A program made the translations under genes and the position numbers. A stretch of DNA of 64,000 nt, from contig JADLDB010000169.1 of NCBI GenBank assembly GCA_020846875.1, positions 62,001 through 126,000 on the forward strand. Direction: 5' to 3'. This stretch comes from Myxococcales bacterium. GTDB lineage: Bacteria > Myxococcota > Myxococcia > Myxococcales > Myxococcaceae. The notes below the pieces were generated by a model that saw nothing but the letters and a program-made list of their open reading frames with translations, was not told the origin of the DNA and did not search any database. This document shows, piece after piece, positions 14,083 through 44,740 of the stretch. Within the stretch, counting starts at the first letter, position 1; every line of letters begins with the position of its first letter.

Positions 14083-15600
<1,518 letters not shown>

Positions 15601-22753: not shown

Positions 22754-24562
22754 ATGGAGCCACAGTGGATTCTCCCGGGGGAGCGAGCCGGAGTGGGCGA
22801 CGTGGAGGAGACGGCGCGGCTCGTCGCGTCAGAGCTGGGCCTGCACCCGGTGGCGGCGCGGGTGCTGGTGGCCCGGGGGCACGGGAGCCCCGAGGCGGCC
22901 CGGAAGTTCCTGTCGGACGCGCTGACGGAGCTGCCGGATCCCTTCCTGATGAAGGGGCTGCCCCAGGCGGTGGCGCGGCTGGCGCGCGCGGTGAGAGATC
23001 AGGACGCGGTGACGCTGTACGGGGACTACGACGTGGACGGCGTCACCTCTACGGCGCTGTTGTCCACGGTGCTGGGACAGTTGGGCCTCAACGTGCGCAC
23101 GTACATCCCCCACCGGCTGGAGGAGGGCTACGGGCTCAACCTCCCCGCCATCGAGAAGCTGGCCGCCGAGGGCACGAAGCTGCTCGTCACCCTGGACTGT
23201 GGGATCACCTCGCACGCGGAAGTTGCCAAGGCGAACGCGCTGGGCCTGGAGGTGATCGTCGTCGATCACCACGCGGTGCCGGAGACGATGCCGCCGGCGC
23301 TGGCGGTGTTGAACCCGCTGCAGCCGGGCTGCGACTACCCGACGCGGTGGCTGTGCGCGGGGGGCGTCACCTTCAACCTGTGCATGGGCCTGCGGAAGAC
23401 GCTGCGCGAGGCGGGCTTCTTTGCGACGCACCCCGAGCCCAACCTGAAGCAGCACCTCGATCTGGTGGCGCTGGCGACGGTGGCGGACGTGGTGCCGCTG
23501 ACCGGGGCCAACCGGATCCTGGTGACGCACGGCCTGGAGCAGCTCACGGCGGGGCGGCGGCTGGGGGTGCGGGCGCTCAAGGAGGTCGCGGGCCTCGGCG
23601 GGGCGGAGGTGACGGCCGGGCAGGTGGGCTTCCGGCTGGGGCCGCGGATCAACGCGGCGGGGCGGCTGGATGACGCGTCGGTGGGGCTGCAGTGCCTGTT
23701 GGCGAAGGACTACCAGGCGGCGCTCAGGCTGGCCCGCGCGCTGGACTCGGCCAACGCCGAGCGGCAGCAGATCGAGAAGGCCATGTTGCACGAGGCCCTG
23801 GAGCAGGCGGGCGACGCGGTGGAGCGCGGGGCGAAGGGGCTGGTGCTGTCTTCACCGGGCTGGCACCCCGGGGTGGTGGGGATCGTCGCCTCGCGGGTGG
23901 TGGAGCGCTTCCACCGGCCGGCCATTCTCATCGGCGTGCACGACGGGATGGGGAAGGGGAGCGCCCGGAGCATCGAGGGCTTCCACCTGTACGACGCGAT
24001 CAAGTCGGTGGCGGGGCACCTGGCGCGCTTCGGCGGGCACAAGGCGGCGGCGGGCCTGTCCATCGACCCGGGGAAGCTGCCGGGCTTCCGGGCCGACTTC
24101 GAGTCCGTCGCCGGGCAGCGCCTCACCGACGGCGACCTGGTGCCGAAGCAGCGGATCGACGCGGTGGTGACGCCGAAGGAGCTGGACGAGGCCGCGGTGG
24201 AGGCGCTGGCCGCCCTGGCGCCCTTCGGCATGGGCAACCCCGAGCCGGTGCTGGCGCTCGAGCACCTCGTCACCAGCCCGCGGGTGCTGGAGAACAAGAC
24301 GCCCGGGGAGCCGGGGCACCTCAAGCTGACGGTGGAGGGCGCGCCGGCGCTGGATGTGATCGGCTTCCGCCTGGCGGAGAAGGCGCACCTCACGGAGGGG
24401 CCGGTGGATCTGGCCTTCAAGGTGGGGATGGACGAGTTCCGCGGAGTGAAGCGGGTGGCGCTCAAGCTGGCCGGGCTGCGGGCCAGCAAGGAGCGGCGGC
24501 CCTCCCCCACGGAGGGCTTCCACGGCGCCGGCGGCTACGGAGGATCCAGGCGGAACCGGTAG
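22754..24562 (+). CDS. recJ: Single-stranded-DNA-specific exonuclease RecJ
   Basis: 602 residues from ATG 22754 (MEPQWILPG); GTG 22748 is an alternative. RecJ degrades single-stranded DNA 5' to 3' in recombination and mismatch repair. DHH-family motifs are GDYDVDG (90-96), LDCGI (147-151) and VDHH (170-173). The DHHA1 part has GGHKAAAGLSI. The C-terminal OB-like domain (LKLTVEGAPALDVIGF) is present, so the protein is complete and of usual length (~570). Its last 28 bases overlap the 3' end of the convergent lipoprotein gene. Confidence 0.96.
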   Translation: MEPQWILPGERAGVGDVEETARLVASELGLHPVAARVLVARGHGSPEAARKFLSDALTELPDPFLMKGLPQAVARLARAVRDQDAVTLYGDYDVDGVTSTALLSTVLGQLGLNVRTYIPHRLEEGYGLNLPAIEKLAAEGTKLLVTLDCGITSHAEVAKANALGLEVIVVDHHAVPETMPPALAVLNPLQPGCDYPTRWLCAGGVTFNLCMGLRKTLREAGFFATHPEPNLKQHLDLVALATVADVVPLTGANRILVTHGLEQLTAGRRLGVRALKEVAGLGGAEVTAGQVGFRLGPRINAAGRLDDASVGLQCLLAKDYQAALRLARALDSANAERQQIEKAMLHEALEQAGDAVERGAKGLVLSSPGWHPGVVGIVASRVVERFHRPAILIGVHDGMGKGSARSIEGFHLYDAIKSVAGHLARFGGHKAAAGLSIDPGKLPGFRADFESVAGQRLTDGDLVPKQRIDAVVTPKELDEAAVEALAALAPFGMGNPEPVLALEHLVTSPRVLENKTPGEPGHLKLTVEGAPALDVIGFRLAEKAHLTEGPVDLAFKVGMDEFRGVKRVALKLAGLRASKERRPSPTEGFHGAGGYGGSRRNR

Positions 24563-27500
24563 GACAGGTTGACGCCGGGGCGCAGCCAGGTGGTGTTGAT
24601 GCCGAGGGCGATCGCCGCCGTCGCGCCGGGGTTCTCCAGCCACGCGGTGGCGCCCACGCCCGCCCCGTAGTTGGACGAGCTGCCCGACTCCATCGAGGCG
24701 TAGTGGAACTCGATGGTGCCGTCGTCGAAGATCTTCACCTCGAAGTTGAGGCGATCGAGCGTCGACAGCGCCACGTATTGGTACCACTGGATCACGGTGT
24801 GGGCGGCTGGCGTCACCGGATCGTCTCCCGCGTCGAAGCGCTGGGTGTACACCGCTGCGCCCGGCTCGGTGGCGGGGGCGAGCGAGTCCCAGAAGGGCGC
24901 GATGGTGCCGCCGGTGGGCGCGGTGGTGGACGGGCGCGTCTTGTTGGTCGACGTCTCGGCGCCCGTGTAGGAGCCGGGGATCATCCAGCCGTGCTGCGAG
25001 ATGGTGACGGCCGCGGTGGGCGTGCCCCACAGCGGGACAGGGCTGGCGAAGGTCAGCGACGCGAGGCCCGCCATGAAGGCCAGCGGCGTACCCGTGCGGG
25101 AGATGTCCTTGAAGGTGGGATCGACGCGCGTCAGCCGGTAGCCGAGGCAGGTGCGATCGACACCGGGGCTCCCCTGCTGTTGGGGCGCCAGGGCGCCATA
25201 CGGCTGGGTGGCGTTGCAGGTCTTCGGTCCCAGGGTGCCGGTGCCCGCGGGGATGACGGGGTTCGGGTCGAAGACGGTCGCCACGCCGGCGATCGCCGTG
25301 GTCCAGGACGCGGACAGCGTGAGAGTGTCCCGGCGCAAGGCCACCGCGCCGCTGGTCCTGGCCAGCTCCTGAGCGGTGCCCCAGGCGTAGTCCACCGGCA
25401 CGCCGTCGTTGGCCGCGGTGTCCGCCGTCTGGCCCAGCACCTTCACGCCGAAGGGCGGCACCACCAGGCTGCTGCCGATGGTGTGCACGTTGCCCGCGTC
25501 GGGCGGCCCGAACTCGATCGTCCAGCCCTGGAGCTCGACGGGGCGGGGCGAGCGGTTGATCACCTCGAACCACTGGCCGGCGTCGGCGGCCCCTGCCGCG
25601 GGGGCGTACATCACCTCGCTGATCGAGAGCTCACTGGTGCGCGCGTAGTCCTCGAACTCCACGGCCATCAGGCCCATGGGCATCTTCACGAAGCCCACGT
25701 TGCGCAACAGCTCCGCCTGCGCGGCGGGGAAGTCGGCGATGACGCCGGCCTTCGGGCCGAAGAGCACGCGCCTGAGGCCGGTGGTGGGCAGCACGGTGCT
25801 GCGCAGCCCGATGCCCCGGGGGCCGTTCATCCCGCTGATGAAGGTGGGCGCCGAGGCCCCCAGCTCGACCTTCGCGTAGTCGTACTCCACCAGGCCGCTC
25901 TGGTGCAGCCGGGCCTGGAAGGTGGCCTCGGTGTTGGCCGCGCCCCAGCGCGCCAGCTTGTCCCACTGGACGATCAACACCTGGTTGGGCGGGGCGCCCT
26001 TCACCTGCCAGTAGACGTGGCCCGTCGTCTCGAGATCGAGATCGACCCACAGCGGCGCGAAGTAGTTGGCTTCGTAGGTGGCGCTGGGCCAGATCGTGGT
26101 CACCGAGTCGCCCGCCGTGACGGTGGTGCCGAAGGCCAGCGCCCCGTTGGCGGCCGCAGACACGGGACCGGACACCAGGCGGCCAGCCACGTGCATCGAG
26201 AAGCCTTCGGGCAGGAAGGTGGCCACGCCGTTGTCGGTGTTCGGCAGGACGAGCTCGGTCCCGGTGGCGGAGATGTCGTCGAAGGTGCCGGCGTCGGGTG
26301 TGTCGTCCACGCCGAAGGGGAAGCCGACCAGCTCGGCCCCGCCGTCCACGACGAACTGCAGGTCGACGTTCCCCTGGCCGGTGATCAGCGTCGCGCCGCC
26401 GTCCGCGCTGGTGAAGCGAGCGGGGGCGGTGACGGTCACCACGGCCTCGGCGAACACCGAAGGGTCGACGGTGTTGTCGGCGACCAGCCTGTAGGTGGTG
26501 CGGGCCTTGTTCGGGTAAGCGGTGGCGGTGCCGGCTTCGGCGGCGGCACCGTCGAAGCCGGCGACGGCGAGCAGCTCGTCTTCCACGATGCGCACCCGGC
26601 GGGCTCCCGGCGCGCTCCAGGTCAACGTGACCGGCTCTCCACCCGCGGCGATGGTGCCGGGGGTAACGGTGAAGGAGGCCAGGGTGACCGTCTGGGTGGG
26701 CTCGACGGTGACGGACTTCGTCTCCCGGCCCCCGCGGCTGTTGGTGGCCACCACGGTGACGGTGATGGGTGCGGTCCCGATGCCCAGCTGCGTGGCGCCC
26801 TGGGCGACCTCGGCGGCGGAGGACGCGGTGAAGCGGGGGGCGCCGTCCACTTCCACCGAGAGGCCTTCAGCGCCCTGCGTCTTCCACTGCACGCTCACCT
26901 GCGTCCGCGGCGCGACGTAGGGCGGGGCCGTCACGCTGAGGATCTTCAGGCTGCCCGCCGTGCGCACCGTCAGGCCGCGGCTCACGGTGACGGCTCCGGC
27001 GGTGGCCTCCAGGGTGTACTCGACGACGCCGTCCGCCGGCAGATCGGCCGGCAGGGTGTCGGTGAAGTCGCCGGCTGCCACGCGCGCGGCGTCCGTCTCG
27101 TTGAGGAGCGCGTTGGTGGCGCCGACCCGGGTGAGCGTCAGGGAGGTGGCGCCGCGGGTGGTCCACTTCAGCTTCGCCATCGCGCCGGCGGCAGGGGGCG
27201 CCCCGTCGAGCGAGAAGTCGGCGATCACCGGCTTCACGTCCACGGTGACGGTCGAGGCGTCGCCGTCGACGGTCAGCCGGTAGGAGGTGGAGTGGGAGGG
27301 AGTGACCGACACCGTCCCGTTCTCCTTCTGGCTGCCAATGTCGATCGCCACGCCGCCCACCTCCTCCAGCGTCACCGTCTGGGCCCCGGGGGCAAACCAG
27401 ACGAGGGTGGAGGACTGGCCGGCCTCGACCTTCGCGGGGAGCGCGGAGAACAGCACCGTGCTCGTGCCGCCGGCCACCGTCACGCCCACCGAGCGCGCGT

Positions 27501-27813
27501 CCGTCCCGCCTTCGCCCCGAGCGGTGAGGACGAAGATGGTGTTCACCTGCACCGCGACGGTGGCGCTCCCGCTGGCTCCGGTGGCGGAGACCGGCCCTAC
27601 GCCCACCTGCTCGACGGACACGCTGGTCGCGTCGGTGGTGGACCAGCTCAAGGTCACCATGTCACCCGGCGTGGGGACCGAGGCCGGCGTGACGGTGAAG
27701 GAGGAGATCTTCGCCGCGGGCGGCGGCGGCAGCGGATCAGCCGGCTTGGGAGGGCAGCCTGTCGCGAGGACCACGGAGGCGGCGATGAGGAGGCTTCGAG
27801 TCGTCGTCGTCAT
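24535..27813 (-). CDS. Ig/lamin-tail surface lipoprotein A (subtype I)
   Basis: 1,092 residues from ATG 27813, with GAGGA 6 bases upstream. Signal II: LATGC with lipidated Cys20, then a Pro-rich linker. Five Ig-like beta domains lie at ~36-114, 117-193, 195-285, 288-370 and 377-463, each with a TLxW core strand. A nidogen-like beta domain follows (~495-690; IVQWDKL). The lamin-tail domain (~728-845) starts ISEVMYAPAA and has WFEVINRS. A second nidogen-like domain (~890-1092; IAPFWDSL) ends near SYRF. No enzymatic motif. It is probably anchored in the outer membrane with the stalk outward, perhaps for adhesion or matrix binding (inference). Its closest relative here is lipoprotein D. It is the last gene of the C-B-A set, 8 bases after B. 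Confidence 0.85.
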   Translation of the reverse strand: MTTTTRSLLIAASVVLATGCPPKPADPLPPPPAAKISSFTVTPASVPTPGDMVTLSWSTTDATSVSVEQVGVGPVSATGASGSATVAVQVNTIFVLTARGEGGTDARSVGVTVAGGTSTVLFSALPAKVEAGQSSTLVWFAPGAQTVTLEEVGGVAIDIGSQKENGTVSVTPSHSTSYRLTVDGDASTVTVDVKPVIADFSLDGAPPAAGAMAKLKWTTRGATSLTLTRVGATNALLNETDAARVAAGDFTDTLPADLPADGVVEYTLEATAGAVTVSRGLTVRTAGSLKILSVTAPPYVAPRTQVSVQWKTQGAEGLSVEVDGAPRFTASSAAEVAQGATQLGIGTAPITVTVVATNSRGGRETKSVTVEPTQTVTLASFTVTPGTIAAGGEPVTLTWSAPGARRVRIVEDELLAVAGFDGAAAEAGTATAYPNKARTTYRLVADNTVDPSVFAEAVVTVTAPARFTSADGGATLITGQGNVDLQFVVDGGAELVGFPFGVDDTPDAGTFDDISATGTELVLPNTDNGVATFLPEGFSMHVAGRLVSGPVSAAANGALAFGTTVTAGDSVTTIWPSATYEANYFAPLWVDLDLETTGHVYWQVKGAPPNQVLIVQWDKLARWGAANTEATFQARLHQSGLVEYDYAKVELGASAPTFISGMNGPRGIGLRSTVLPTTGLRRVLFGPKAGVIADFPAAQAELLRNVGFVKMPMGLMAVEFEDYARTSELSISEVMYAPAAGAADAGQWFEVINRSPRPVELQGWTIEFGPPDAGNVHTIGSSLVVPPFGVKVLGQTADTAANDGVPVDYAWGTAQELARTSGAVALRRDTLTLSASWTTAIAGVATVFDPNPVIPAGTGTLGPKTCNATQPYGALAPQQQGSPGVDRTCLGYRLTRVDPTFKDISRTGTPLAFMAGLASLTFASPVPLWGTPTAAVTISQHGWMIPGSYTGAETSTNKTRPSTTAPTGGTIAPFWDSLAPATEPGAAVYTQRFDAGDDPVTPAAHTVIQWYQYVALSTLDRLNFEVKIFDDGTIEFHYASMESGSSSNYGAGVGATAWLENPGATAAIALGINTTWLRPGVNLSYRFRLDPP

Positions 27814-27821
27814 GGCGGTCC

Positions 27822-30800
27822 TCAGTTGGTGGGTGTGTAGCGGTACGCCGTGTTGGACTGGATGACGGGCTCGTTGCGACCGATGGGCAGCGCCGCCGCC
27901 CCGGTCGGTTGCTCGATCCACACGGTGGCGCTGTTGCCGTCGCCATAGTTGCTGGCGTCGCCACTGATCATCGCGCCGTAGTGGAGCTCGATGCGGCCGT
28001 TGTCGAAGAGCTTCACCTGGAAGTTGAGGTCGTCGTCCCCGAGCCAGTGCGTGAAGTGCGACCACTGGATGACGGTGTGATCGGCGCGCCGCGTCCAGAA
28101 GACGTTCGAGGCGCTCTGCGCCGGGAAGTTCTCCAGGTCGTCCCAGAAGAGGGCGATGGCGCCCACCGGCTGGAGGGTGGCCGAGGTCGAGGTGCGGTTG
28201 GAGTAGATGGCGCTCGCTTGCGTCTGGAAGTCCAGCCACCCGCTGGGGCTCGTCCACACCTGCGTCTGCGGGGCCCCGAAGTAGGGGAAGGCGACGGGCA
28301 GGGTGATGGAGGCCGGTGCCTCCAGCCAGTCGATGGGCGTGCTCAACGGGAAGGCAGGCGTGCCCGTCAGAGAGATGTCGTCGAACGCGGCGGGGATGGA
28401 GGTGAGGACGTAGCCGAAGCAGGACACGAGGGTGCCGGGGGTCCCCGTCTGCGGAGGCACCTGGCTGCCGAAGGTCTGCGTGGTGGTGCACTGCTGGGTG
28501 CCCAACGCGCTGCCCACCAGGACGGGGGTGCCGTCGAGGTTCAGCGCGTTCCCGTTGCCGCCCACGGATCCTGTCCACGTGATCGACGCGACGGAGGTGG
28601 CGCCGGCGCGAAGCGTCAGAGTGCCGTTGGTGTCGGGCATCGTCAGCGCCGTGCCGTAGGCGTAGTTCACGGTCACGCCGTCGTTGGTCAAGGTGTCGGT
28701 GGTCTGGCCGAGCACGAGGATCGCCCCTGGCAGCAAGGGGAGGCTGCCGGCGATCGTGTGCGTCGTCCCCCCACCGAAGTCGATCTCATAGCCGCTCAGA
28801 TCCAGCGTCGCCGTGCCGTTGTTGACCAGCTCGAACCACTCACCCGAGGGGACGGTCGCGGCTGGAGCGAACATCACCTCGGTGACGCGGACGTCGCCGG
28901 CCCGGACGAAGCGGCTCAGCGCCATGCGGGTGAAGCCCGAACCTACCTTCACGAAGCCGCTCACCGGCAGGACCGCGGCCGACACGCTCGCCGGCGCCGT
29001 CTTCGGGCCGAAGAAGCGCAGGCTGCCGCCCGCGGTGGGAGTTCCGGTCAGTCCGCGCCCGCCGCTCGCCTGGAGCCCCGAGACGGAGGTGTAGGTCGAC
29101 GGAAGGTTGTCCAGCGTCTCGTACTCGAAGGTGATCACCCCGGTCTGGGAGATCTGCGCCTGGAAGGTGAGCGACGACATGGGCGTGCCAACCATGCGCA
29201 CCTGGTCCCACTGGACGATCAGCAGCCGGTTGGGGGCCTCCCCCTGGATCTCCCAGTACACGGCGCCGTTGGGGCCCAACTCCAGGTCGGTCCAGAAGGG
29301 CGCGAGGAACTGATCATACGTGGTGCTCGTGCCGGGGAAGGTGGAAGGCGGGGAGGCGGTGGTGGTGGTGGTGGCGCGCAGGGCCATGAAGCCGTTGGTG
29401 CACACCGAGATGTTCCCGGACGCGGCGTAGCGCGTGCCGTAGAGGTACGTCTCGAAGCCCGGCACGGGGAACTGCACGTAGCCGTTGTCGGTGCTGGAGA
29501 AGGTCAGCTTGGTGCCCGTCATCGCGATGTCCACGAAGCCGGTGGAGGTCGGGTTGGACTCCGTCGTGTCGCTCGGCAGGCCGTAGATCTCGGTGCCGAC
29601 CGGGAAGCCCAGGTCGATGTTGCCGCCGCCCTCGAAGACGACGCCGCCGTCGAAGCTGGAGAGCTCAGCGACGGTGGTGACCGTGACGTCTGCGTTGGCG
29701 GTGATCGCCGGATCAAGCGTGTTGGTGGCGGTGAGGACGAAGCGGCTGGCCGCCTTGTTTGGATAGACGGTGGCGGTGCCCGACTCGGCGGCGGCGCCCG
29801 TCTTCCACACCACGGTCAGCTCGCTGTCCTGGACGATCTGCACGCGCCGTGCGTTGGGGGCGTTCCAGGTGAGGGTGACCGCATCGCCGCCGTTGGGGAC
29901 GGTGGTGGGGGTGGCGGTGAAGGTCATCACGCTCGCGACGCCGACCGGCTTCACGGTGGCGTCCTTGGTCGCGGCCAGGCCCGAGGGCAGGGCGACCGCG
30001 GCCACGGTGTACACCGTGTCCGTCGCGGGCGCGGGCAGCTCCACCGAGCCCGTCGCGACCTGGGAGAAGCTGGTCGTCTCGTAGATGGTGCGGGTGCCGA
30101 CGCGCACCTGCACCACGTCGGCGTTGGCGGCCTTCCAGGCGAGCGTGAAGGCCTCGCCGGTCCTGGCGTACTCGGGCGCGGTGACCTCGGTGATCACCGG
30201 GTCCTTGCCGATCACCTGAGTCACCACCTTCCGCGTGGTGCCGCCGGGTCCTTCGGCGTCGAGCACGTAGTTGATCACCGAGCCGGAGGGCAGGGTGGGC
30301 ACGGTGTAGACGTGCGAGCCCATCGCTACCTCCGCCGCGGTGGTGCTCTCGAAGAGCGTGCCGACGCCCGGCGAGGAGAGGGTGATCTTCGTGGCGTGGC
30401 TGGTCTTCCAGCTCACCGTGGTCATCTCGCCCACCTCGATCACGGGCGCCGAGAGGGTGAGCTCGCTGATGGCCACCCCGCGGGTGACGGTGATCGTCCG
30501 CGTCTGGCCGTCGGCGCTGAGGGTATAGGTGGTCTCCGTGGCCGCCGGATCGACGCTGACGGAGCCAGACTCCACCTGCCCCATCAAATCGAGCGCGGCG
30601 CTGCCCATCGGCGTGATGGTGACCGTCTTGGCGTTCGGGGCGGCCCAGATCAGCGTGCCCGTCTCGCCGACAGGGACGACCTGCGGGTAGGCGGCGAACA
30701 GCAACTTGTCGGGGTCGGCGCCGGAGACGGTCACCGAGACGAAGGCCGTGGCCTTGGCGCCGCGATCGTTGAGCGCGGTCAGCACATACAGCGTATTGGC

Positions 30801-31064
30801 GGTGGGCAGTTGTGTGAGCGTTCCGGTGAGCTTGTCGTCGACGCCCGAGACGTCGCCTCTCTCGACGTCGGCGATGGTCACCTTGGTGGCGTCAGTGACG
30901 GTCCAGGCCAGGGTGACTTCCCTGCCGGGCGTGACCGACCCCGGAGTGGCGGTGAAGCTGACCACCTTGGGCGAGGGAGGGATGGGATCGGGCTTGGGGG
31001 CCGTGGGGCACCCGCTGAGGGCGAGGCCGAGGAGGAGAGCCGGGAGGATGCGCAGGGTCTTCAT
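27822..31064 (-). CDS. Ig/lamin-tail surface lipoprotein B (subtype II)
   Basis: 1,080 residues from ATG 31064 (MKTLRILPALLLGLALSGC). GGAG 9 bases upstream favours this over ATG 31079. The lipid anchor is Cys19, followed by the linker PTAPKPDPIPPSP. The N-terminal half has about five Ig-like domains (VTLAWTVTDATKVTI and repeats). Then come a nidogen-like domain (FLAPFWTDLELG, LLIVQWDQVR), a lamin-tail domain (VTEVMFAPAATVPSGEWFEL) and a second nidogen-like domain (IALFWDDLENFP) ending at AYRYTP. It has the same layout as its neighbours but is clearly closest to lipoprotein E, sharing DPIPPSPKV and the Ig order. The gene begins 18 bases after the stop of C and ends 8 bases before A. Function unknown; surface structural or adhesive role inferred. 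Confidence 0.85.
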   Translation of the reverse strand: MKTLRILPALLLGLALSGCPTAPKPDPIPPSPKVVSFTATPGSVTPGREVTLAWTVTDATKVTIADVERGDVSGVDDKLTGTLTQLPTANTLYVLTALNDRGAKATAFVSVTVSGADPDKLLFAAYPQVVPVGETGTLIWAAPNAKTVTITPMGSAALDLMGQVESGSVSVDPAATETTYTLSADGQTRTITVTRGVAISELTLSAPVIEVGEMTTVSWKTSHATKITLSSPGVGTLFESTTAAEVAMGSHVYTVPTLPSGSVINYVLDAEGPGGTTRKVVTQVIGKDPVITEVTAPEYARTGEAFTLAWKAANADVVQVRVGTRTIYETTSFSQVATGSVELPAPATDTVYTVAAVALPSGLAATKDATVKPVGVASVMTFTATPTTVPNGGDAVTLTWNAPNARRVQIVQDSELTVVWKTGAAAESGTATVYPNKAASRFVLTATNTLDPAITANADVTVTTVAELSSFDGGVVFEGGGNIDLGFPVGTEIYGLPSDTTESNPTSTGFVDIAMTGTKLTFSSTDNGYVQFPVPGFETYLYGTRYAASGNISVCTNGFMALRATTTTTASPPSTFPGTSTTYDQFLAPFWTDLELGPNGAVYWEIQGEAPNRLLIVQWDQVRMVGTPMSSLTFQAQISQTGVITFEYETLDNLPSTYTSVSGLQASGGRGLTGTPTAGGSLRFFGPKTAPASVSAAVLPVSGFVKVGSGFTRMALSRFVRAGDVRVTEVMFAPAATVPSGEWFELVNNGTATLDLSGYEIDFGGGTTHTIAGSLPLLPGAILVLGQTTDTLTNDGVTVNYAYGTALTMPDTNGTLTLRAGATSVASITWTGSVGGNGNALNLDGTPVLVGSALGTQQCTTTQTFGSQVPPQTGTPGTLVSCFGYVLTSIPAAFDDISLTGTPAFPLSTPIDWLEAPASITLPVAFPYFGAPQTQVWTSPSGWLDFQTQASAIYSNRTSTSATLQPVGAIALFWDDLENFPAQSASNVFWTRRADHTVIQWSHFTHWLGDDDLNFQVKLFDNGRIELHYGAMISGDASNYGDGNSATVWIEQPTGAAALPIGRNEPVIQSNTAYRYTPTN

Positions 31065-31082
31065 GGTGGTGGGCTCCATGGC

Positions 31083-34481: not shown

Positions 34482-34569
34482 GGGCTTCCTCGACTGTGAA
34501 GGGCTGCGCGAAGGTTGCGCCGGGGATCGTGAGACTCACCGGCGACCTGGTGTTTCAGCCCGGGGTGAA

Positions 34570-34590: not shown

Positions 34591-34721
34591 GAACGCGGTA
34601 CTACGCGGGCAGGGGAATAGCGGCGTCGATCCGCCGGGTCAACGCCGATTCAGGATTCCGTCGCGACACTGTGACAACCGGGCCGCGGCGCTCGCTTCGC
34701 CACCTACGGGTGTTTCCGCCT

Positions 34722-37700
34722 CTACGGGAGGTGACGGAACAGGAAGCTGGTCCCGCCGCGGATCCCCGGCGCCGTGGCTGAATTGACGTTGAGGGCCAGG
34801 GCCGCGTCACCCGCGGGGCTCTCCAGCCAGCTCGTCGCGCTGCTGCCCTGGATCAGCGGATCGCTGCCCACCTGCCGGCCGTAGTGGAACTCGATGTCGC
34901 CGTTCCCGCGGAACTTCACCTGGAAGTCGAGGTACTGGTTCACCACTGACGCCATGTTGGGGCGCCAGCCTTCCCACGAGACGATCGTCACTTCATCGCC
35001 GCTGTCGGGCGTCCCGTCGGGATCGCGCTGGAGCCAGTACATGCCGTGGCCGCTCTGGCTGCTGTCGGCTGCCAGCGAGTCCCAGAAGGGCGCGATCTCC
35101 CCCACCGGCTGGGCGGTGCTGGGCGTCGCCTGGTTGCTCACCGACGTATTCAACGTGCCGGTGGTGCTCAGCCACCCCGCGCTGCACACCGACACCGCCG
35201 CGCTGGCGTTTCCGAAGTAGCGGACCGGCTGCGGCAGGGTGAGCTGGAAGGTCTGCACGCTGGTCAGGTTGGCGGCGGCGACGATCTGCGTGCCCGTGGC
35301 CATCAGCGACTCGAAGCCGCCGGCCGGCAGGGACTCCAGCACGTAGGGGAAGCACCGCCCCTGCGCCGCTCCGGGGGTGCCCTGCTGCGCCGGCGTGCCG
35401 TAGGTGGTGGTGGTCGCCACGGGGCAGGTGGGCGCCGTGAAAGGCGACGCGGTGCGGAGGCTCGTCGACGGTCGATCCGCCTGCACGGCGCGCCCGTTGG
35501 CTACCGCGGTCGTCGCGGTCCAGTCGAGGCGGGCGAAGGCCAGCGTCGATCCCGGCGGCCGCAGCGCCAACTGTCCCGAGGCGTCGGGCAGGAGGAAGCT
35601 GGACGGGTACAGGTGCCCCACCGTCACTGCGGCGCCGTTCCCCAGATCCGCCGCCTGCGCCAGCAGCAACCGCCCGCCGGCCGGCACCGACACGCCCGCC
35701 GGGAAGGTGTACGACGACGCCCCCGCCACCATGGACCAGCTCGAGAGATCGATGGGCGCGGGCGTGAAGTTGGCGAGCTCGATCCACTCCGCGTTGGCGA
35801 GGCCGAGGGCGGGGCGCGGGTTCACCTCGGTGACCGCCAGATCTCCCAGGATCAGCACGTCGTCCAGCAGGGCCTCCACTCGCGCGCCGCCGCCCACCGC
35901 TACCGACACGTATGCCGGCGCGGGCATCACCACGTAGCTGACCGGGAGCGCGCTGACCGGCACCGCGCCGAAGAAGCGCAGGGTGTCGCCGGTGGCCGGC
36001 AGCGTCGGGGCGGAGAGGTAGGCCGTCTCGTCACCGTTCACCACGCCCGCCGAGAACGTCGTGGGCACGTTCTGGATCGCCTGGTACGCGAAGACGAGCT
36101 CCCCCGTGGCGTAGACCTGCGCCTGGAAGGTGAGGTCGCTGTTGTCGATGCCCTTGGCCTGGACGTGCGTCCACTGGAGGATGAGGCGCTCGACGCCGCT
36201 CACGGTGTCCTGGCGCCAGTGCACGCGGCTCTGGGGGCCGAGCTGCAGGTCGCGCCCGAAGGGGACGATCGACAGCGGCTGCAGGTTGGTCGTCACCGGT
36301 ACCGCGGGGATCGCCACCGCGTCGTTGCCGCGCGAGAAGACGAACCACCCGTTGGTGCTCACGGAGACGGCCGTCGCGTCCACCGCCCGGCCGAAGATGC
36401 GCAGGTCCATGCCGGGCAGGGAGAGGAGCGCGGTGCCGTCGTCGGTGTTGGCGACGCCCGCGGTGGTGGCGAAGCCGACGACCTCGGTGCCGCTCGAGGA
36501 GATGTCCACGAAGGCCGTGCCCTGGGCGTTGGTCTCCACCCGCGGCAGGCCGGAGATCGCCGTCGCGCCAGCCAGCGTGGTGCCGGTGGCCTGGACCTGG
36601 TTGCCCGCAGGCAGCCGGCGAGAAGCGCTCACCACCGCGGGGGTCGTCACCGTCACCGTCGCCGTTTGCGGGGTGATGCTCTCGCCCGCCTGGTTGTCGG
36701 CCTCCAGCCGGTACGTCACCGACGGCCGGTTGGGCCGCACCGTCACCGTGCCCGTGTCCAGCAGGCCTTCCCTCTCCAGCGCCACGCCGCCGCCCACCTG
36801 CACCAGCCGCACGCGCCGCGCGTTGGGCACGTCCCACGCCAGCGTCACCTCGCTGCCGCTGGTGGCCACCGTGGAGGGGGACGCCGTGAAGGAGTTGAAG
36901 CTGAGCCCGCCCACCGCCTCCACCACGCCCTGCACCTCGGCGCGCTCGCCGCCCTGGTTGGTGGCGACCAGCGTCACCGTCACCGGCGACGGGCCGATGT
37001 CGACGACCGCGTTTCCGGTCAGCACCTCCGCCGCGCTGGAGGTGACGAAGACGCTCTGGCCGTCCACCTCCACGCGGACCTGATCGGCGCCGGCCGTCTG
37101 CCAGCTCACCGGCACCACCGCGCCGCTGCGCCCGTACGCGGGGATGTTGGTGAGCGTGAAGCGCAACGTGCCGCCGGTGCGGATCACCAGCGGCTGGGTC
37201 ACCCGGTCCGTGCCGACGGAAGCCGTCAGCGTGTAGCTCAGCACTCCGCCCGCCGGCAGGGAGGCCGGCACCGTGTCCGTAAAGTCACCGGAGGCGACCT
37301 CTGCCGGCTCCGTCTCGTCCAGCAGGGGCGTGGAGAGGTCGGCGCGCGTCAGCGACACGGCGGTGGCGCCGCGGGTGATCCACGCCACCGTCACCGGGCC
37401 ACCTGCCAGCGGGGGAGCGCCGTCGAGGACGAAGGCCTCGATCACCGGCGTCACCGTCACCGTCACCTCGTGGGACTCTCCGTCGACGGTGAGGCGGTAG
37501 CGGCTGGTGAGCTCGGGCGCCACCACCACCGCGCCGCTGCTCCCCTGGCCGCGGAGATCGATGGGACTGCCGTTCACCTCTTCCAGGGCGATCGTCTGCG
37601 CGCCCGGCGCGTGCCAGGTGAGGGTCGCGGAGCCGCCCGCCTCGATCCGCTCCGGCAGGGCCGCGAAGAGCACCCCCTGCGCCGTCGACTGCACGGTGAC

Positions 37701-38024
37701 GCCGATCGACCTGGCGTCGGTGCCGCCTTCGCCCCGCGCGGTCAGCACGAAGGCCGTGTTGGCCGCGACGGTGGCGCTCGCCTCGCCGCTGGTGGACGTC
37801 CCGCCCGTCACCGGCCCCACACCCACCTGCTCGAGCGAGACGCTGGTGGCGTCCTGGGTCGTCCACGAGATGGTCACCGGGTCGCCGGGTGTCGCCACCG
37901 TGGTGGGCGTCACGGTGAAAGCGGAGATCTTCGCGGGCGGCGGAGGCGGCAGGGGATCGGCCTGCTTCGGAGAGCAGGCGGCGAGGGCGACCAGGGCCAG
38001 GAGCAGGAAGGGGCGCATCGACAT
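34722..38024 (-). CDS. Ig/lamin-tail surface lipoprotein D (subtype I)
   Basis: 1,100 residues from ATG 38024 (MSMRPFLLLALVALAAC). The GGAG 7 bases upstream suits this ATG; 38030 and 38018 are in-frame alternatives. The lipid anchor is Cys17, then KQADPLPPPPPAK. Five Ig-like domains, a nidogen-like domain (IVPFGRDLQLG, LILQWTHVQ), a lamin-tail domain (VTEVNPRPALGLANAEWIEL) and a second nidogen-like domain (IAPFWDSLAADS), ending SFLFRHLP. Its first ~290 residues follow lipoprotein A nearly residue for residue (for example EQVGVGPV, TARGEGGTDARS), so D and A are duplicates. It is last in the F-E-D set, 26 bases after E. No enzyme motif. Confidence 0.85.
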   Translation of the reverse strand: MSMRPFLLLALVALAACSPKQADPLPPPPPAKISAFTVTPTTVATPGDPVTISWTTQDATSVSLEQVGVGPVTGGTSTSGEASATVAANTAFVLTARGEGGTDARSIGVTVQSTAQGVLFAALPERIEAGGSATLTWHAPGAQTIALEEVNGSPIDLRGQGSSGAVVVAPELTSRYRLTVDGESHEVTVTVTPVIEAFVLDGAPPLAGGPVTVAWITRGATAVSLTRADLSTPLLDETEPAEVASGDFTDTVPASLPAGGVLSYTLTASVGTDRVTQPLVIRTGGTLRFTLTNIPAYGRSGAVVPVSWQTAGADQVRVEVDGQSVFVTSSAAEVLTGNAVVDIGPSPVTVTLVATNQGGERAEVQGVVEAVGGLSFNSFTASPSTVATSGSEVTLAWDVPNARRVRLVQVGGGVALEREGLLDTGTVTVRPNRPSVTYRLEADNQAGESITPQTATVTVTTPAVVSASRRLPAGNQVQATGTTLAGATAISGLPRVETNAQGTAFVDISSSGTEVVGFATTAGVANTDDGTALLSLPGMDLRIFGRAVDATAVSVSTNGWFVFSRGNDAVAIPAVPVTTNLQPLSIVPFGRDLQLGPQSRVHWRQDTVSGVERLILQWTHVQAKGIDNSDLTFQAQVYATGELVFAYQAIQNVPTTFSAGVVNGDETAYLSAPTLPATGDTLRFFGAVPVSALPVSYVVMPAPAYVSVAVGGGARVEALLDDVLILGDLAVTEVNPRPALGLANAEWIELANFTPAPIDLSSWSMVAGASSYTFPAGVSVPAGGRLLLAQAADLGNGAAVTVGHLYPSSFLLPDASGQLALRPPGSTLAFARLDWTATTAVANGRAVQADRPSTSLRTASPFTAPTCPVATTTTYGTPAQQGTPGAAQGRCFPYVLESLPAGGFESLMATGTQIVAAANLTSVQTFQLTLPQPVRYFGNASAAVSVCSAGWLSTTGTLNTSVSNQATPSTAQPVGEIAPFWDSLAADSSQSGHGMYWLQRDPDGTPDSGDEVTIVSWEGWRPNMASVVNQYLDFQVKFRGNGDIEFHYGRQVGSDPLIQGSSATSWLESPAGDAALALNVNSATAPGIRGGTSFLFRHLP

Positions 38025-38050
38025 GGGCATTCTCCGAAGGCGGCGCGTGA

Positions 38051-41000
38051 TCAGGGCGTGCGCAGGAAGCGCAGGCCCATGCCGGGGGTGGCGGTGGAGG
38101 TGTTGACGGTGGCGGTGTTGACGCTGTGGGCAAGCGCCTCGGTGCCGGCCGGGTTCTCCAGCCAGATGGTGGCGCTCAGGCCGCTCGCGTAGTCCTGATC
38201 CGAGCCGCTCTGCATCACTCCGTAGTGGTACTCCACCACGCCCGAGTCGAAGAACTTCACCTCGAAGTCCAACGAGTCGTTGTGCGTGCGGGCCGGGTAG
38301 TGGCTTACGCCCTTCCACTCGACGATCCAGTGGGGCCGCGGCTCCACCGCCGACGCCCCCGCCGCGAAGCGCTTCACGTACACCCCAGAGGCGCTGCGCC
38401 CGGTGAAGTCCAGGTCGTCCCAGAAGGGCGCGATGATCAACCCGCTCGTGGGCAGGGTGGAGCTGTCGGGGCGCACCTTGTTGCTCGGACCGGCGTTGGT
38501 CGTCGAGGTGAAGGCGCGGGGCAGGATCCACCCGTTGCTCGACACGGTGAGGGTGTTGGTGGGCGTGCCGAACAGCACGATCGGCGCGGCGGAGACGTCG
38601 ATGGAGGCCAGGCCTTCGTCCGTCGGCAGGGCGATCACGTTGACCGGCTGCAGGGCGACGAAGGTGGTGGGGGACGCCACGTCCTCGAAGGCCCCGTCGA
38701 TGGGCAACAGGAGGTAGCCGCGGCAACTGGTGTTGACTCCCGGCGTGCCGCGCTGCTGCGGCGTCTGCGTTCCATACGGCTGGGTCCCGGCGCATGGCCG
38801 CTCGGTCAGGGTGGAGCCGGTGGCGCTGGTGACCACCTTCGTCGGATCGAATACGCCCGCCACGCCGTTCGCCCCGGGGCCCGCCGGCGTCCACGACGCC
38901 TGGGTGGCGAAGCTGCCGGAGCGCAAGGTGACGGAGCCAGTGAAGTCGTTGAGGAGGAAGGACGTGCCGTAGGCGTAGCCCACCGCGACGCCGTCGTTCT
39001 GCGCGGTGTCGGTGGTCTGCCCCAGCACCAGCGTCCCTTCCGCGGGCACCACCGCGTTGCCGGCGATGGTGTGGACGTTGCCGCCCCCGAAGTCGAGTTC
39101 GAAGCCGGCGAGATCGAGCGGCCGCTTCGAGGCGTTGCGCACCTCGATCCACTCCCCGGCGGGCACCAACGGCCCCGTCGCGTACATCACCTCGGCGATC
39201 GCCAGCTCACCGGCCTTCACGAAGCGGGTCAGCGGCACGTTGGTGAAGCCCGTCCCCAGCTTGACGAAGCCGCTCATCGGCAGCCGCGCGGCCGATACCG
39301 TCACGGGCGCCGCCCTCGGTCCGAAGAAGCGCAGGCCTGTCCCCGCCGCCGGAGTGCCCGTGAAGCCGACGCCGCGGCCCGAGGTCGTCTGCAGTCCGAT
39401 CGTCTGGGCGTACACCATCGGGAAGTTGCTCAGCGTCCGGTATTCGAAGGTCACCACCCCGGCCTGGCTCAGCTGCGCCTGGAAGGTCAGCTCCGAGTAG
39501 GGCGCGCCGACGATCCGCACCCGATCCCACTGGACGATCAGCACCCGGTTGGGGGCCTCGCCACGCACCTCCCAGAAGACGTTGCCCTGGGGGCCCAGCT
39601 CCAGGTTGGACCAGAAGGGCGCGATCGTCAGGTTGTAGGTGGTGTTGATGCCCGGGTAGGCGGAGGACGGCGACGTCGGGAACAGCGTGTTGCGCCGCAG
39701 GGACAGGAACCCATTGGTGCAGGCCGAGATGATCCCCGTCCCCAGGCGACTGCCGTACAGCGTCGTCTCGAAGCCCTCGGCGGTGAACTCGGCGTAGCCC
39801 TGATCCTGGCTGCCGGTGAAGCTGAGCGCGGTCCCCGTGGTGGAGATGTCGACGAAGCCCGAGGTGCTCAGCAGATCGACGTTGGAGTGCGGCAGGCCGT
39901 GGATCTCGCTGCCCACAGGCAGGGCGAGGTCGACGTTGCCCTGGCTCTGGTAGACGAGCCCGCCGTCCACCTGCGAAAGCTGCACCGGCGTCGTCACCGT
40001 GACGTCGGCGGTGGCGGTGAGCGGCGCGTCCAACATGTTGTCGGCGGTCAGCTTGAAGCGGGTGCCGGCGCGGTTGGCGTACGCGGTGGCGGTGCCCGAC
40101 GCCGCGGCAGGGCCGGTCAGCCACACCACCGTGAGTTGATCGTCCTGCTCGATGCGCAGCCGGCGCGCGTTGGGCACGTTCCACTGCAGGGTGACCGCGC
40201 TACCGCCGGTGGCCACGGTGCCGGGCGTGGCGGTGAAGAGGTCGAGCTGGGTGTCGCCCACCGCGTCCACCGTCACGTCCTTCGAGGCGGACTTGCCGGA
40301 CTGCAGCGCGATCGCCGTCACCGTGTAGGTGGTGGCGCTGGCGGGCGTGGGCAGGCGCACCTGGCCCTGGGCCACCTGCGGAGCGGTGGTCGTCTCGTAG
40401 AGGACGGTGCCGCCGGCGATCACCCGCACCACGTCAGCGTTGGCCGCCTTCCACGAGAGCGCGAAGTCCTGGCCCACCTTGGCGTAGGGCGGCGCGTTCA
40501 CCTCCAGCACGGAGGGATCGACCCCCACCAGGACGGGCACCGTCTGGCGCGCGGTGCCTCCCGGGCCTTCCGCGTCGAGCCGGTAGTTGAGGATGGTGCC
40601 GTCCGCCAGCGCCGGCACCACGTGGGCGAAGCTGCCCTGGGCCAGCTCCGCCGGGGCGGTGGTCTCGTGCAGCACCCCGATGCCGGGGACGGAGATCGTC
40701 ACCTTCGCCGTGAAGCGCGTCTTCCACGACACCGTCACCGTCTCGCCCGGGCGCGCCGCGGTCTTCGAGGCGGTCAGTTGGTCGATCGACGGCAGGCGCG
40801 TCACCGTCACCGTCCGGGTCAGCCCGTCCGCGTCCAGCGTGTAGCTGGTCTCCGCGGAGGCGGGATCGATCGACACCGAGCCCGACTGCACCTGGCCCAT
40901 CAGGTCCAGCGGGGCGCCGTTGGAGGGGGTGATCGTCACCGTGCGCGCGCCGGGCGCAGTCCACAACAGCGTGCCCGTCTCTGCGGGGGCCAGCACGGGC

Positions 41001-41383
41001 GGCCAGGCGGAGAGGATCAGATCGTTCGCGTTCGGCGCGGCCGCCACTTTCACCGAGACGAAGGCGGTGGCCCGTGCGCCGCGCTCGTTGGCGGCGGTGA
41101 GCACGTACAGGGTGCTGTCGGCGGGGCTCACCTCCAGCGTGCCGGACAGGCGGTTGTCCACGCCTGACGCCGCGCCCTGGTTCACGTCGGAGATGGTGAC
41201 GCTGGTGGCGTCCTGCACTTCCCAGGTGAGCGTCACCGGCGTGCCGGGCTCGATGGCCGTCGGCGAGGCGGTGAAGGAGATCACCTTCGGGGAAGGCGGG
41301 ATCGGATCCGGCGGCGGCGCGGTAGGGCAGCCGGCGAGGGCGCCGAGGAGGGCGAACAGCGGAGCGGTGCGCAGGGCGGTCAT
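38051..41383 (-). CDS. Ig/lamin-tail surface lipoprotein E (subtype II)
   Basis: 1,110 residues from ATG 41383, preceded by AGGACCGCC, the same ribosome-site string that precedes gene A. An in-frame ATG at 41395 is the alternative. Lipobox GALAGC, Cys19; linker PTAPPPDPIPPSP. Five Ig-like domains, a nidogen-like domain (IAPFWSNLELG, VLIVQWDRVR), a lamin-tail domain (IAEVMYATGPLVPAGEWIEV) and a second nidogen-like domain (IAPFWDDLDFTG, DFEVKFFDSGVVEYHY), ending GLRFLRTP. Closest relative B. The middle gene of the F-E-D set: 15 bases after F and 26 before D, so probably cotranscribed. Function unknown. Confidence 0.85.
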   Translation of the reverse strand: MTALRTAPLFALLGALAGCPTAPPPDPIPPSPKVISFTASPTAIEPGTPVTLTWEVQDATSVTISDVNQGAASGVDNRLSGTLEVSPADSTLYVLTAANERGARATAFVSVKVAAAPNANDLILSAWPPVLAPAETGTLLWTAPGARTVTITPSNGAPLDLMGQVQSGSVSIDPASAETSYTLDADGLTRTVTVTRLPSIDQLTASKTAARPGETVTVSWKTRFTAKVTISVPGIGVLHETTAPAELAQGSFAHVVPALADGTILNYRLDAEGPGGTARQTVPVLVGVDPSVLEVNAPPYAKVGQDFALSWKAANADVVRVIAGGTVLYETTTAPQVAQGQVRLPTPASATTYTVTAIALQSGKSASKDVTVDAVGDTQLDLFTATPGTVATGGSAVTLQWNVPNARRLRIEQDDQLTVVWLTGPAAASGTATAYANRAGTRFKLTADNMLDAPLTATADVTVTTPVQLSQVDGGLVYQSQGNVDLALPVGSEIHGLPHSNVDLLSTSGFVDISTTGTALSFTGSQDQGYAEFTAEGFETTLYGSRLGTGIISACTNGFLSLRRNTLFPTSPSSAYPGINTTYNLTIAPFWSNLELGPQGNVFWEVRGEAPNRVLIVQWDRVRIVGAPYSELTFQAQLSQAGVVTFEYRTLSNFPMVYAQTIGLQTTSGRGVGFTGTPAAGTGLRFFGPRAAPVTVSAARLPMSGFVKLGTGFTNVPLTRFVKAGELAIAEVMYATGPLVPAGEWIEVRNASKRPLDLAGFELDFGGGNVHTIAGNAVVPAEGTLVLGQTTDTAQNDGVAVGYAYGTSFLLNDFTGSVTLRSGSFATQASWTPAGPGANGVAGVFDPTKVVTSATGSTLTERPCAGTQPYGTQTPQQRGTPGVNTSCRGYLLLPIDGAFEDVASPTTFVALQPVNVIALPTDEGLASIDVSAAPIVLFGTPTNTLTVSSNGWILPRAFTSTTNAGPSNKVRPDSSTLPTSGLIIAPFWDDLDFTGRSASGVYVKRFAAGASAVEPRPHWIVEWKGVSHYPARTHNDSLDFEVKFFDSGVVEYHYGVMQSGSDQDYASGLSATIWLENPAGTEALAHSVNTATVNTSTATPGMGLRFLRTP

Positions 41384-41398
41384 GGCGGTCCTCATGGC

Positions 41399-44300
41399 TC
41401 AGGGCACCGGGGTGAAGCGGTAAGCGGAGTGGGGCGCGACGGTCGGGTTGTTCAGGTTCTGGGTTGCGTTGCGCAGGATCGGCAGCGCGTCGGAGTACCA
41501 GGGGCGCTCCAGCCACACCGTGGCGCCGTAGCCGGTGGCGAACGGCTGGGCCGCGTTGGCGCTGATCATGTTCCCGTAGTGGATCTCGATCACCCCGTCG
41601 TCGAAGAGCTTCGCCTGGAAGTTCATGTCGTCGTCCTGGCCGGCGATGGTCTCGGACATGCGGTGCCACTGCACGATGGTGGCGCTGCCCACCCGCGCCA
41701 CGTACACGTTGGCTTCGGGCTCGTTGCCGCGGGCACGCAGGCTGTCCCAGAAAGGAGCGATCACCCCCTGGGGGCTGCGCGTGGTGTCGGTGAGCCACGG
41801 GTTGCCGGATCCCGAGGTGGGCTGCGGGCGCACGGAGATCCACCCGTTGGAAGAGATCCACACCGTGGAGTACACGGTGCCGAAGTAGGTGAGCGGCGCG
41901 GGCAGCTCGTACCCGTTGGCGGTCACCACGCCGCTCATCGACGTGCCCGGCGCGAAGACCGGCGCCCCGAAGGACGAGATGTCCACGTACGACGCGGGGA
42001 TCGGCTGGAGCCGGTAGAAGTAGCACGTCTCGTTGATCGCCCCGGGCGTCCCCACCTGCAGGGCGGCGCCGAAGGTCTGCGTGCGGGTGCACGGCCAGGG
42101 ATCCTGCCCGTTGCGGATCGCGCGCTCGGCCGGTTGCACCGACTGGCCGGGAGAGGAGTTGACGCCTCCGTCCGCCGTGCCACCGGTCCAGGTCAGGCTG
42201 GAGATCACGAAGGGCGTCGCGTCGGGGATCCGCAGCTCCACGCTGTCCGCCGGCTGCAGCGGCAACTGCCCCTGCGCCCAGGCCACCTGCACGTTGGCCT
42301 CGCCATTGTCCGCCGGGTTGGTCGATTCACCCAGCACCAGGTGCGCGCCGCCGTCGAGCGTCAGGTCCTGAAAGAAAAAGGAGGTCGCGGCCCCGCCGGA
42401 GCCGCTGGCGAGCTCCAGGCCGGTCAGGTCCAGCGCCTCGTCGGTGTTGTTCTTGAGCTCGATCCAGTGCCCCTGGCTCACCAGCTGCGAGGGCAGCGGC
42501 AAGGCCTCGCTCACCACCACCATGTCGGTGGAAAACGTCCTGGCCGTCCCGGACACGTTCATCAGCTGACCCGAAGGAAGCTCGACGAAGAAGCCGAAGG
42601 GCCGGTGCCCGCGCAGGCGAAGATCCTGCGTGCCGGTGGCGCGGGCGATGTCGTTGGCGAACCAGCGCAGCTCCTCGCCGGCGCCCACCGTCCCTGTCAC
42701 GTTGTAGCCGACCGACGCCGCGAAGGAGCCGGGGGACTCCACCGCGCCCACCGTGGCGGACGAGGTGTCCGCGCCCAGGAGCGTGCGGTAGACGAAGCGG
42801 AACTCGCCGGTCTCGAAGAGCTGCACCTGGAAGGTGAGCTCGGTCGACGACGTGCCCGCCTTCTGCAGCCGGGACCACTGCACCAACAGCTTGCGGGGGA
42901 AGGTGGCGCCCTCCAGGAAGTACTTCACCGAGCCGTTGGCGCCGAGATCGAGATCGTCCCAGAAGGGGGCCAGCAGCGCCGGGCCGGGGTAGTTCGGCGA
43001 GGCCACGTCGGCGTTGGTGTCGCCCACCGAGCTCGGGCCCAGCACCAGCACGCCGTTGACCGACGCGGTGAGGGTCGTCACCCGGCTGGTGACGAAGGGG
43101 AAGACGAAGCCCTGGGGCGCGGAGAAGGCGGCCACCGAGCGATCCGGGTTGGCGAAGTACAGCGTCGTCGCCTCGGGGATCGTCTCCAGGTCGATGAAGG
43201 GGCCCGTGGAGGTGCTGGACTCCGGGGTCGGATCCGGCAGGCCCGGCAGATCGTTCGGGGTCAGCGAGGTGAGATCCCACGACGCGGTGATGGTGGCGCC
43301 GGCGGGCGCGGGCTGCGGCGAGAAGGCGATCGTCCTCGGTGTGCCGACCACCGTCCGCGCCTCGGCGGTGACGGTGTCGCCCGCCGCGTTGGCCGCCTCC
43401 AGCACGAAGGTGGTGGTGGCGCCCACGAACATCGCCTGGTTTCCCGAGGCGACCTGCGTGGCGGCGTCGGTGACGAAGAGGTTGGCGCCGCCCTTCGCGC
43501 GGATCACCACGCGCGTGGCGTTGGCGGTCTGCCAGGTGGCGGTGATCGGCATGCCCGCCTGGGCAACGGACGAGGTGACGGTGAAGGAGGTGACGGTCGG
43601 GCGATCGACCACCGCCGTGTGCTTCGTCACGCGGGTCGACAGCCCATTGAAGTCGTACGCCACCAGCGTGAAGTCGGTGGGCGCGGTGAGTGGAGGGACG
43701 TCGAAGCTCGCGTCCAGCCGGGTGCCGGCCAGCGGGGCGTGCAGCAAGAGGCCGTCGGCGTAGAGCTCGACGCGCCAGGCGTTGGTGGTGGCCCAGGAGA
43801 TCGTCAGCGGCGCGCCGCGCGTCCCGGCGGAGGCCACGTCGAAGGCGTCGATCTGCGGGCCCGCGCCCACCCGGCTGTCCAGCGCGCGCGACACGGCCTG
43901 GGCGGGCGAAGTGGCGGACAGCGTCAAGGTGAAGCGCAGCGGGAAGCCGTCGCGCACCGCCACGCCGCCGTCCGGCAGCGCGGAGGGGACGGTGAAGGTG
44001 TGGCTGCCCTGGGCCACGCCGGTGGTGGTGTCCACCAGCGGGCCGAAGGTGGCCTCGCTCACCACCACGCGCTCGCCGCCGGCCGTCCTCCACTGGAGCT
44101 CGAGGTCGGCGCCTTGCGTGGCCGCGGGCGGGGTGAGGGTGAAGGACTCCACCACGGGGATCACCTGCACCGTGACGCTGGTGGTGAGCGCCGTGCCGTC
44201 CGCCTTCTCGGAGCGCAGGGTGTAGGTGGTTGACAGGGCCGGCGTGTCGGTGAGGCTGCCCGAGGAGTCGGTGCTCAGGCTGCGCGTGCCCGCGGTGAGG

Positions 44301-44740
44301 GACGCGTTCTTCCCGTCGGCGGCGGACCACACCACGTCCACCGACTCGCCCGCGTGGATCACCGGCGGGGCCACCACCAGGAAGACGGACTGGAGCCCCT
44401 CGTCCACCGCCACCTGCACGAAGGCCGTGTCCCGCCCGCCGTCGCCGTCGGCGTGGAGGATGAAGAAGGCAGACGCGCCTGGCGTCGCCGTGGCCGTGCC
44501 GCTGCCCTGGCTGGCGTCGAAACTGACGGACGTGGCCACGCCGTCCTGGTCGATCAACTCGACCGACTTCGCGCGCTGGGTGGTGAGGGTGAAGGTGACG
44601 GCCTCGCCCGGGGCGATCCGCGCCTTGTCCACGGAGAAGGAGGTGATCGCCGGCGGCGCCTCGGGAGGCGGCGGCTTCTCGGGCGACGAACACCCGGTGA
44701 GGGCGAGCAGTGCAGCGAGGCTCAGGGCGCGAGGCGTCAT
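41399..44740 (-). CDS. Ig/lamin-tail surface lipoprotein F (subtype III)
   Basis: 1,113 residues from ATG 44740 (MTPRALSLAALLALTGC), with GAGAAAG upstream. The frame is open further up to 44896, but that part holds the leader hairpin and lacks a signal peptide. The lipid anchor is Cys17; linker EKPPPPEAPPA. Five Ig-like domains, a nidogen-like domain (LLAPFWDDLDLG, LLVQWSRLQ), a lamin-tail domain (VVSEALPLPSQLVSQGHWIEL) and a second nidogen-like domain (IAPFWDSLRARG, MNFQAKLFDDGVIEIHY), ending YRFTPVP. Closest relative C, without the Asp-Ala-Gly insertion. First gene of the F-E-D set, and the one with the best promoter candidate. Confidence 0.85.
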   Translation of the reverse strand: MTPRALSLAALLALTGCSSPEKPPPPEAPPAITSFSVDKARIAPGEAVTFTLTTQRAKSVELIDQDGVATSVSFDASQGSGTATATPGASAFFILHADGDGGRDTAFVQVAVDEGLQSVFLVVAPPVIHAGESVDVVWSAADGKNASLTAGTRSLSTDSSGSLTDTPALSTTYTLRSEKADGTALTTSVTVQVIPVVESFTLTPPAATQGADLELQWRTAGGERVVVSEATFGPLVDTTTGVAQGSHTFTVPSALPDGGVAVRDGFPLRFTLTLSATSPAQAVSRALDSRVGAGPQIDAFDVASAGTRGAPLTISWATTNAWRVELYADGLLLHAPLAGTRLDASFDVPPLTAPTDFTLVAYDFNGLSTRVTKHTAVVDRPTVTSFTVTSSVAQAGMPITATWQTANATRVVIRAKGGANLFVTDAATQVASGNQAMFVGATTTFVLEAANAAGDTVTAEARTVVGTPRTIAFSPQPAPAGATITASWDLTSLTPNDLPGLPDPTPESSTSTGPFIDLETIPEATTLYFANPDRSVAAFSAPQGFVFPFVTSRVTTLTASVNGVLVLGPSSVGDTNADVASPNYPGPALLAPFWDDLDLGANGSVKYFLEGATFPRKLLVQWSRLQKAGTSSTELTFQVQLFETGEFRFVYRTLLGADTSSATVGAVESPGSFAASVGYNVTGTVGAGEELRWFANDIARATGTQDLRLRGHRPFGFFVELPSGQLMNVSGTARTFSTDMVVVSEALPLPSQLVSQGHWIELKNNTDEALDLTGLELASGSGGAATSFFFQDLTLDGGAHLVLGESTNPADNGEANVQVAWAQGQLPLQPADSVELRIPDATPFVISSLTWTGGTADGGVNSSPGQSVQPAERAIRNGQDPWPCTRTQTFGAALQVGTPGAINETCYFYRLQPIPASYVDISSFGAPVFAPGTSMSGVVTANGYELPAPLTYFGTVYSTVWISSNGWISVRPQPTSGSGNPWLTDTTRSPQGVIAPFWDSLRARGNEPEANVYVARVGSATIVQWHRMSETIAGQDDDMNFQAKLFDDGVIEIHYGNMISANAAQPFATGYGATVWLERPWYSDALPILRNATQNLNNPTVAPHSAYRFTPVP

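Follow-up and report, generated by a model that had tools for sequence, protein, structure and literature searches.

The window, a stretch of 64,000 nucleotides, contains six intact and adjacent reading frames on the minus strand (24535-44740), which follow one another in the transcription order III-II-I, III-II-I. The first-pass annotation had described six neighbouring genes of one architecture with this order given twice, and both the description and the subtype linkers that it named (EKPPPPE, DPIPPSP and ADPLPPPP), which we found in the window proteins, are borne out. With starts corrected to 44740 (F), 41395 (E), 38030 (D), 34481 (C), 31079 (B) and 27813 (A), the array reads as follows.

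41399-44740, minus strand: gene F, 1113 aa, subtype III of module 2, transcribed first; lipobox LTGC, linker SSPEKPPPPE
38051-41395, minus strand: gene E, 1114 aa, subtype II of module 2; lipobox LAGC, linker PPDPIPPSP
34722-38030, minus strand: gene D, 1102 aa, subtype I of module 2; lipobox LAAC, linker QADPLPPPPP
34482-34721, minus strand: intermodule gap between D and C, 240 bp
31083-34481, minus strand: gene C, 1132 aa, subtype III of module 1
27822-31079, minus strand: gene B, 1085 aa, subtype II of module 1, its last NIDO-like domain grouping with subtype III (gene C)
24535-27813, minus strand: gene A, 1092 aa, a I/II chimera, subtype I over Ig1-4 (residues ~20-375) and II from Ig5

The layout is operon-like, with 3-20 bp between the genes of a module (F-E 3 bp, E-D 20 bp, C-B 3 bp, B-A 8 bp) against 240 bp between the modules. 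A duplicated upstream region at the module junction was considered and rejected, as the D-C gap and the region upstream of F are similar only at the level of shuffled sequence. The whole locus runs aspS (plus strand), Y, Z, the two III-II-I modules and recJ (plus strand), the flanking genes being these.

46933-49035, plus strand: aspS, conserved outer boundary gene
45747-47030, minus strand: neighbour Y, putative lipoprotein metallopeptidase with a thermolysin-like fold
45025-45750, minus strand: neighbour Z, 241 aa, signal peptide; outer-membrane beta-barrel match (PF13505, 2.6e-5) below the cut-off
22706-24562, plus strand: recJ, conserved convergent boundary gene with a 28 bp overlap with the end of gene A

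The six proteins (1,085-1,132 aa) share one architecture of lipobox, Pro-rich linker, five Ig-like sandwiches, a NIDO-like domain, a lamin-tail domain (LTD) and a second NIDO-like domain. A signal peptide with lipobox and cysteine is followed by the Pro-rich linker in all six, and lipobox and linker are found in 63 of 74 rows when the relatives are included, the remaining rows including fragments. At position +2, counted from the cysteine, most rows have P, R, T or S and two have Lys; Lys at +2 is an inner-membrane retention signal proposed for Myxococcus. The LTD (PF00932) lies above the Pfam gathering score in every protein (35.3-44.5 bits against 34.3), the NIDO domain (PF06119) is above the Pfam cut-off in B and E, weak and below the cut-off in A and C, and unlisted in D and F, and no Ig model of Pfam exceeds its cut-off in the six window proteins. 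An AlphaFold model of C, built from an alignment of 37 relatives (mean pLDDT 86), is an all-beta string of modules, in which the strand groups 33-114, 122-196, 198-314, 319-401 and 405-490 were taken as Ig-like sandwiches. By our reading of these strand groups, C consists of five Ig-like domains (~33-490), a NIDO-like domain (~495-735), the LTD (~760-880) and a last NIDO-like domain (~930-1130). Foldseek searches with the whole model returned Ig-string adhesion molecules and the Aureispira grappling-hook protein, at TM-scores of ~0.1 that indicate a generic likeness only; a PDB sequence search with the six-protein profile gave no match, and the MYXO-CTERM model had none in the three window proteins scanned.

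To relate the six proteins, we compared pairwise identities, trees of the full length and of segments, and alternative groupings by AU tests. BLASTP identity is 55% for C/F, 52% for B/E and 39% for A/D, with 29-39% between subtypes; A/E and A/B also reach 39%, equal to A/D. The full-length tree recovers the pairs C/F (100) and B/E (99) and places A among subtype II, so that as sole guide it is misleading for gene A, which is chimeric. Restricted to Ig1-4, the tree resolves the sister pairs A/D (99), B/E (98) and C/F (99), and a grouping of A with B/E over these domains is rejected (p 2e-29). From Ig5 on, A joins subtype II in the segment trees, and A/D as sisters over Ig5-LTD (380-890) are rejected (p 5e-5). 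In the tree of the last domain (895-1092) B joins C and F (support 91-95), and B/E as sisters are rejected there (p 0.002). Thus C/F and B/E are sisters along nearly the whole length and A/D over Ig1-4 only; A/D is no full-length sister pair because A is overall equally near to B/E and its signal is split by domain. Module A-B-C is therefore a mosaic, being of type II from Ig5 in A and of type III in the last domain of B, and the donor subtype in each case is the one encoded immediately upstream in the operon.

Together, segment trees and AU tests indicate that one three-gene cassette was duplicated and that portions of A and B beyond Ig4 derive from another subtype, an exchange read from the trees. 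A three-gene cassette had been proposed as the unit of duplication, and the Ig1-4 sister pairs as well as whole triples duplicated in other genomes uphold this. Of the sister pairs expected by the first-pass annotation, F/C and E/B stand, whereas D/A holds over Ig1-4 and gives way to type II from Ig5. Trees in which the genes of one module are each other's closest relatives were looked for and did not occur.

In a scan of one genome per species (84,980 species), close relatives were found only in myxobacterial metagenome-assembled genomes (L028-L045), the next-best matches being partial (E 2e-23). The proteins are present in 18 of 145 genomes of the order, all within one family (18 of its 96 genomes), and no order genome searched outside the family gave a match at 1e-60. 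The host lineages are relatives of Myxococcus known mainly from metagenomes. The three genes are inherited together: III-II-I arrays lie on single contigs in 12 other genomes of several genera, the genes being spaced by about -4 to +43 bp. The triple is thus syntenic elsewhere, which the first-pass annotation had named as support for its proposal, and its second refuting outcome, no other genome with the three subtypes together, did not occur. When the genes are labelled I, II or III by their place in the array, each subtype forms one group in the Ig1-4 tree, which requires the minimum of 2 label changes; III is strongly supported (100), I (69) and II (62) weakly. In the C-terminal tree 5 label changes are required, and no exchange between subtypes within Ig1-4 was seen in the Ig1-4 tree.

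Independent duplications of the whole triple are seen in at least three genera, namely g1 (the window), g24 (L035/L045) and g17, and the groupings of III, II and I match one another; every tree joins the g24 copies of III and of I as sisters, and the full-length and Ig1-4 trees do so for II. That all three subtypes are kept, as had been stated for the window, proves a strong tendency with two exceptions. G001 (L033) has III and II only, recJ following directly after II, and G005 (L020, L021, L022) has an array III-II-I-I' in which subtype I was duplicated alone (I' and I are 68% identical over the first 377 residues). The G005 array was partly pieced together, since III begins, and I' probably ends, on other contigs. 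Two order relatives of family f6 (G040:C1:1015000-1037200 and G046:C26) also have giant open frames, 2,300-2,739 aa long, in which numerous stretches match the Ig, LTD and NIDO parts; they are relatives built from the same domain kit.

In genus g17 (L037, L040, L041, L115), a large gene on the same strand follows I. The secreted product combines a galactose-binding-like domain with several TIG repeats, of which L115 has eight, and has a MYXO-CTERM tag wherever the end was read (in L116 TIGR03382 scores 17.4 bits against 15.85; in L115, L117 and L120 the motif is visible).

L115:1605-5687, minus strand: TIG/MYXO-CTERM gene (gene IV)
L116:14982-18956, plus strand: TIG/MYXO-CTERM gene
L117:15836-19795, plus strand: TIG/MYXO-CTERM gene
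L120 ~1365-5231, minus strand: TIG/MYXO-CTERM gene

A homologue adjoins each complete g17 triple found (G064, G065, G066); in G016 and G067 it lies on other contigs or at the edge of a contig. The window genome holds only a TIG-type match, located elsewhere, and the partner is linked to the triple in this one genus. Proteins bearing the MYXO-CTERM tag are sorted to the cell surface in myxobacteria (PMC11980579).

The frame aspS-Y-Z-recJ occurs family-wide and, in many relatives, without the cassette. Y, present in 89 of the family's 96 genomes whether or not they have the cassette, carries HExxH and DEGxAD motifs that are invariant in 10 sequences; its Pfam match stays below the cut-off, and its top nine Foldseek matches in the PDB are M4 enzymes, weak at E 0.015 at best for a model of mean pLDDT 67. 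The pair of Y and Z is conserved between aspS and recJ throughout the family (window 45025-47030; loci L105-L114, L119, L121). In g17 the site lacks the cassette and the triples lie at other places; G016 and G066, for example, have a few bp between Z and recJ. Other relatives have other, unrelated genes in the Z-recJ gap, and in G022 it contains a transposase-like ORF (L105:12356-13732, minus strand), so the gap tolerates insertions. Because the frame exists without the cassette, Y and Z look positional rather than obligate partners, and the relocated triples and empty sites rule out the latter. Conserved ORFs ("X") overlapping aspS in other frames were dismissed as shadows of aspS. In a midpoint-rooted tree of the frame genes, genomes with the cassette at this site lie on both sides of the root. 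A cassette ancestral at the site with several subsequent losses or moves would fit; repeated insertion at one site may be an alternative.

Several features point to an outer-membrane contact apparatus: the lipobox with its Pro-rich tether, the arm of beta sandwiches, the domains NIDO and LTD and, in g17, a fourth protein sorted to the surface. We give an even chance to the reading that III-II-I forms such an apparatus, an outer-membrane-anchored hetero-oligomeric adhesin or receptor whose Ig1-4 arm sets subtype identity. The first-pass annotation's suggestion of three proteins acting jointly, as a fibre or receptor set, would fit this reading. The window would then hold two copies of one three-gene operon for outward-reaching outer-membrane lipoproteins, each tethered by its own lipid and Pro-rich linker, and the three paralogues would assemble into one hetero-oligomer. 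That Ig1-4 holds the set together is suggested by the fixed order, the duplication of whole sets and the lack of any exchange seen in Ig1-4; this arm would carry subtype identity and pairing, while the Ig5/NIDO/LTD/NIDO portion would serve as scaffold or for binding and be easier to interchange. After duplication, each cassette copy would provide its own version of the apparatus. We infer exposure at the surface, assembly into a complex, adhesion and a ligand from these features; operon co-inheritance is also to be expected of proteins that act in the same pathway without physical contact.

The exchange of C-terminal domains between subtypes implies that those parts are not locked to one partner, and G005 has duplicated only type I, which G001 lacks. 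Both observations favour separate adhesins or binding proteins for different ligands, co-regulated from one operon without forming a complex, with the cassette duplicated as a transcription unit. We regard this as possible though the weaker candidate, given that every array read has the same order, that all three genes were retained after at least three independent whole-triple duplications and that no subtype exchange was seen in Ig1-4. That a generic Ig/LTD lipoprotein family was amplified in tandem, neutrally and without joint function, would agree with the tandem arrangement and with the patchy, family-restricted distribution. It appears very unlikely, as three distinct subtypes are retained in order, frames are intact at 52-57% identity between copies, relatives' sites lack all three genes together, and decayed or random-order arrays were not seen. 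Most improbable is a single five-gene surface machine of metallopeptidase lipoprotein Y, beta-barrel Z and III-II-I, which could be read from their shared strand between aspS and recJ in several genera; Y far exceeds the cassette in occurrence (89 against 18 family genomes), and the g17 sites and relocated triples had already weakened this idea.

The stricter form of the hetero-oligomer reading, in our view rather doubtful, is that of an undescribed, obligate three-paralogue receptor or adhesin complex, ancestral to the family and lost by the lineage holding most of its sequenced genomes, in which Ig1-4 would be a pairing code and C-terminal swaps would diversify binding. G001 with III and II only and G005 with I alone duplicated speak against the hetero-oligomer reading in general. 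Were the complex obligate, duplication and domain exchange would generate new recognition types. The trio keeps its order and composition across the family, duplicates mostly as a unit, sits at more than one chromosomal place and exchanges one end only, and the hetero-oligomer reading predicts which part of the proteins holds the set together and which may vary. This putative surface system is missing from the best-sampled genera of the family and would have gone unnoticed there.

By its manner of working, the closest described protein would be TasL of Vibrio fischeri, a large lipoprotein, putatively of the outer membrane, which promotes cell-cell contact and has an N-terminal lipid anchor and a long arm of beta-sandwich (FN3-like) repeats proposed to reach outward (PMC9040878). 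Whereas the trio described here is an operon-like array of paralogues, each ~1,100 aa long and equipped with LTD and NIDO domains, TasL is a single ~10-kb gene in a T6SS island outside any operon (PMC9040878); T6SS genes were absent among the cassette neighbours examined. MYXO-CTERM proteins of the same phylum, such as TraA, serve in surface recognition and are, like the window proteins, attached by a lipid (PMC11980579), and a MYXO-CTERM protein accompanies the triple in g17; the window proteins themselves have an N-terminal lipobox. Aureispira GhpA (PDB 9flp, 9fly, 9flw; Foldseek) is also a beta-sandwich string on a bacterial surface, but a single giant protein with 13% identity, and bacterial LTD (PF00932) and NIDO (PF06119) proteins have these Pfam domains in common with ours. 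Within the open-access papers that were searched, we found no description of three co-inherited five-Ig-NIDO-LTD-NIDO paralogues and nothing on LTD or nidogen in myxobacteria, and the cassette system appears undescribed there.

Finally, the window also encodes a Fic-domain protein (6978-8327, minus strand), a patatin-like phospholipase (11502-14477, minus strand), a PAS hybrid histidine kinase (57479-59896, plus strand) and an SNF2-type helicase (59878-62613, minus strand).
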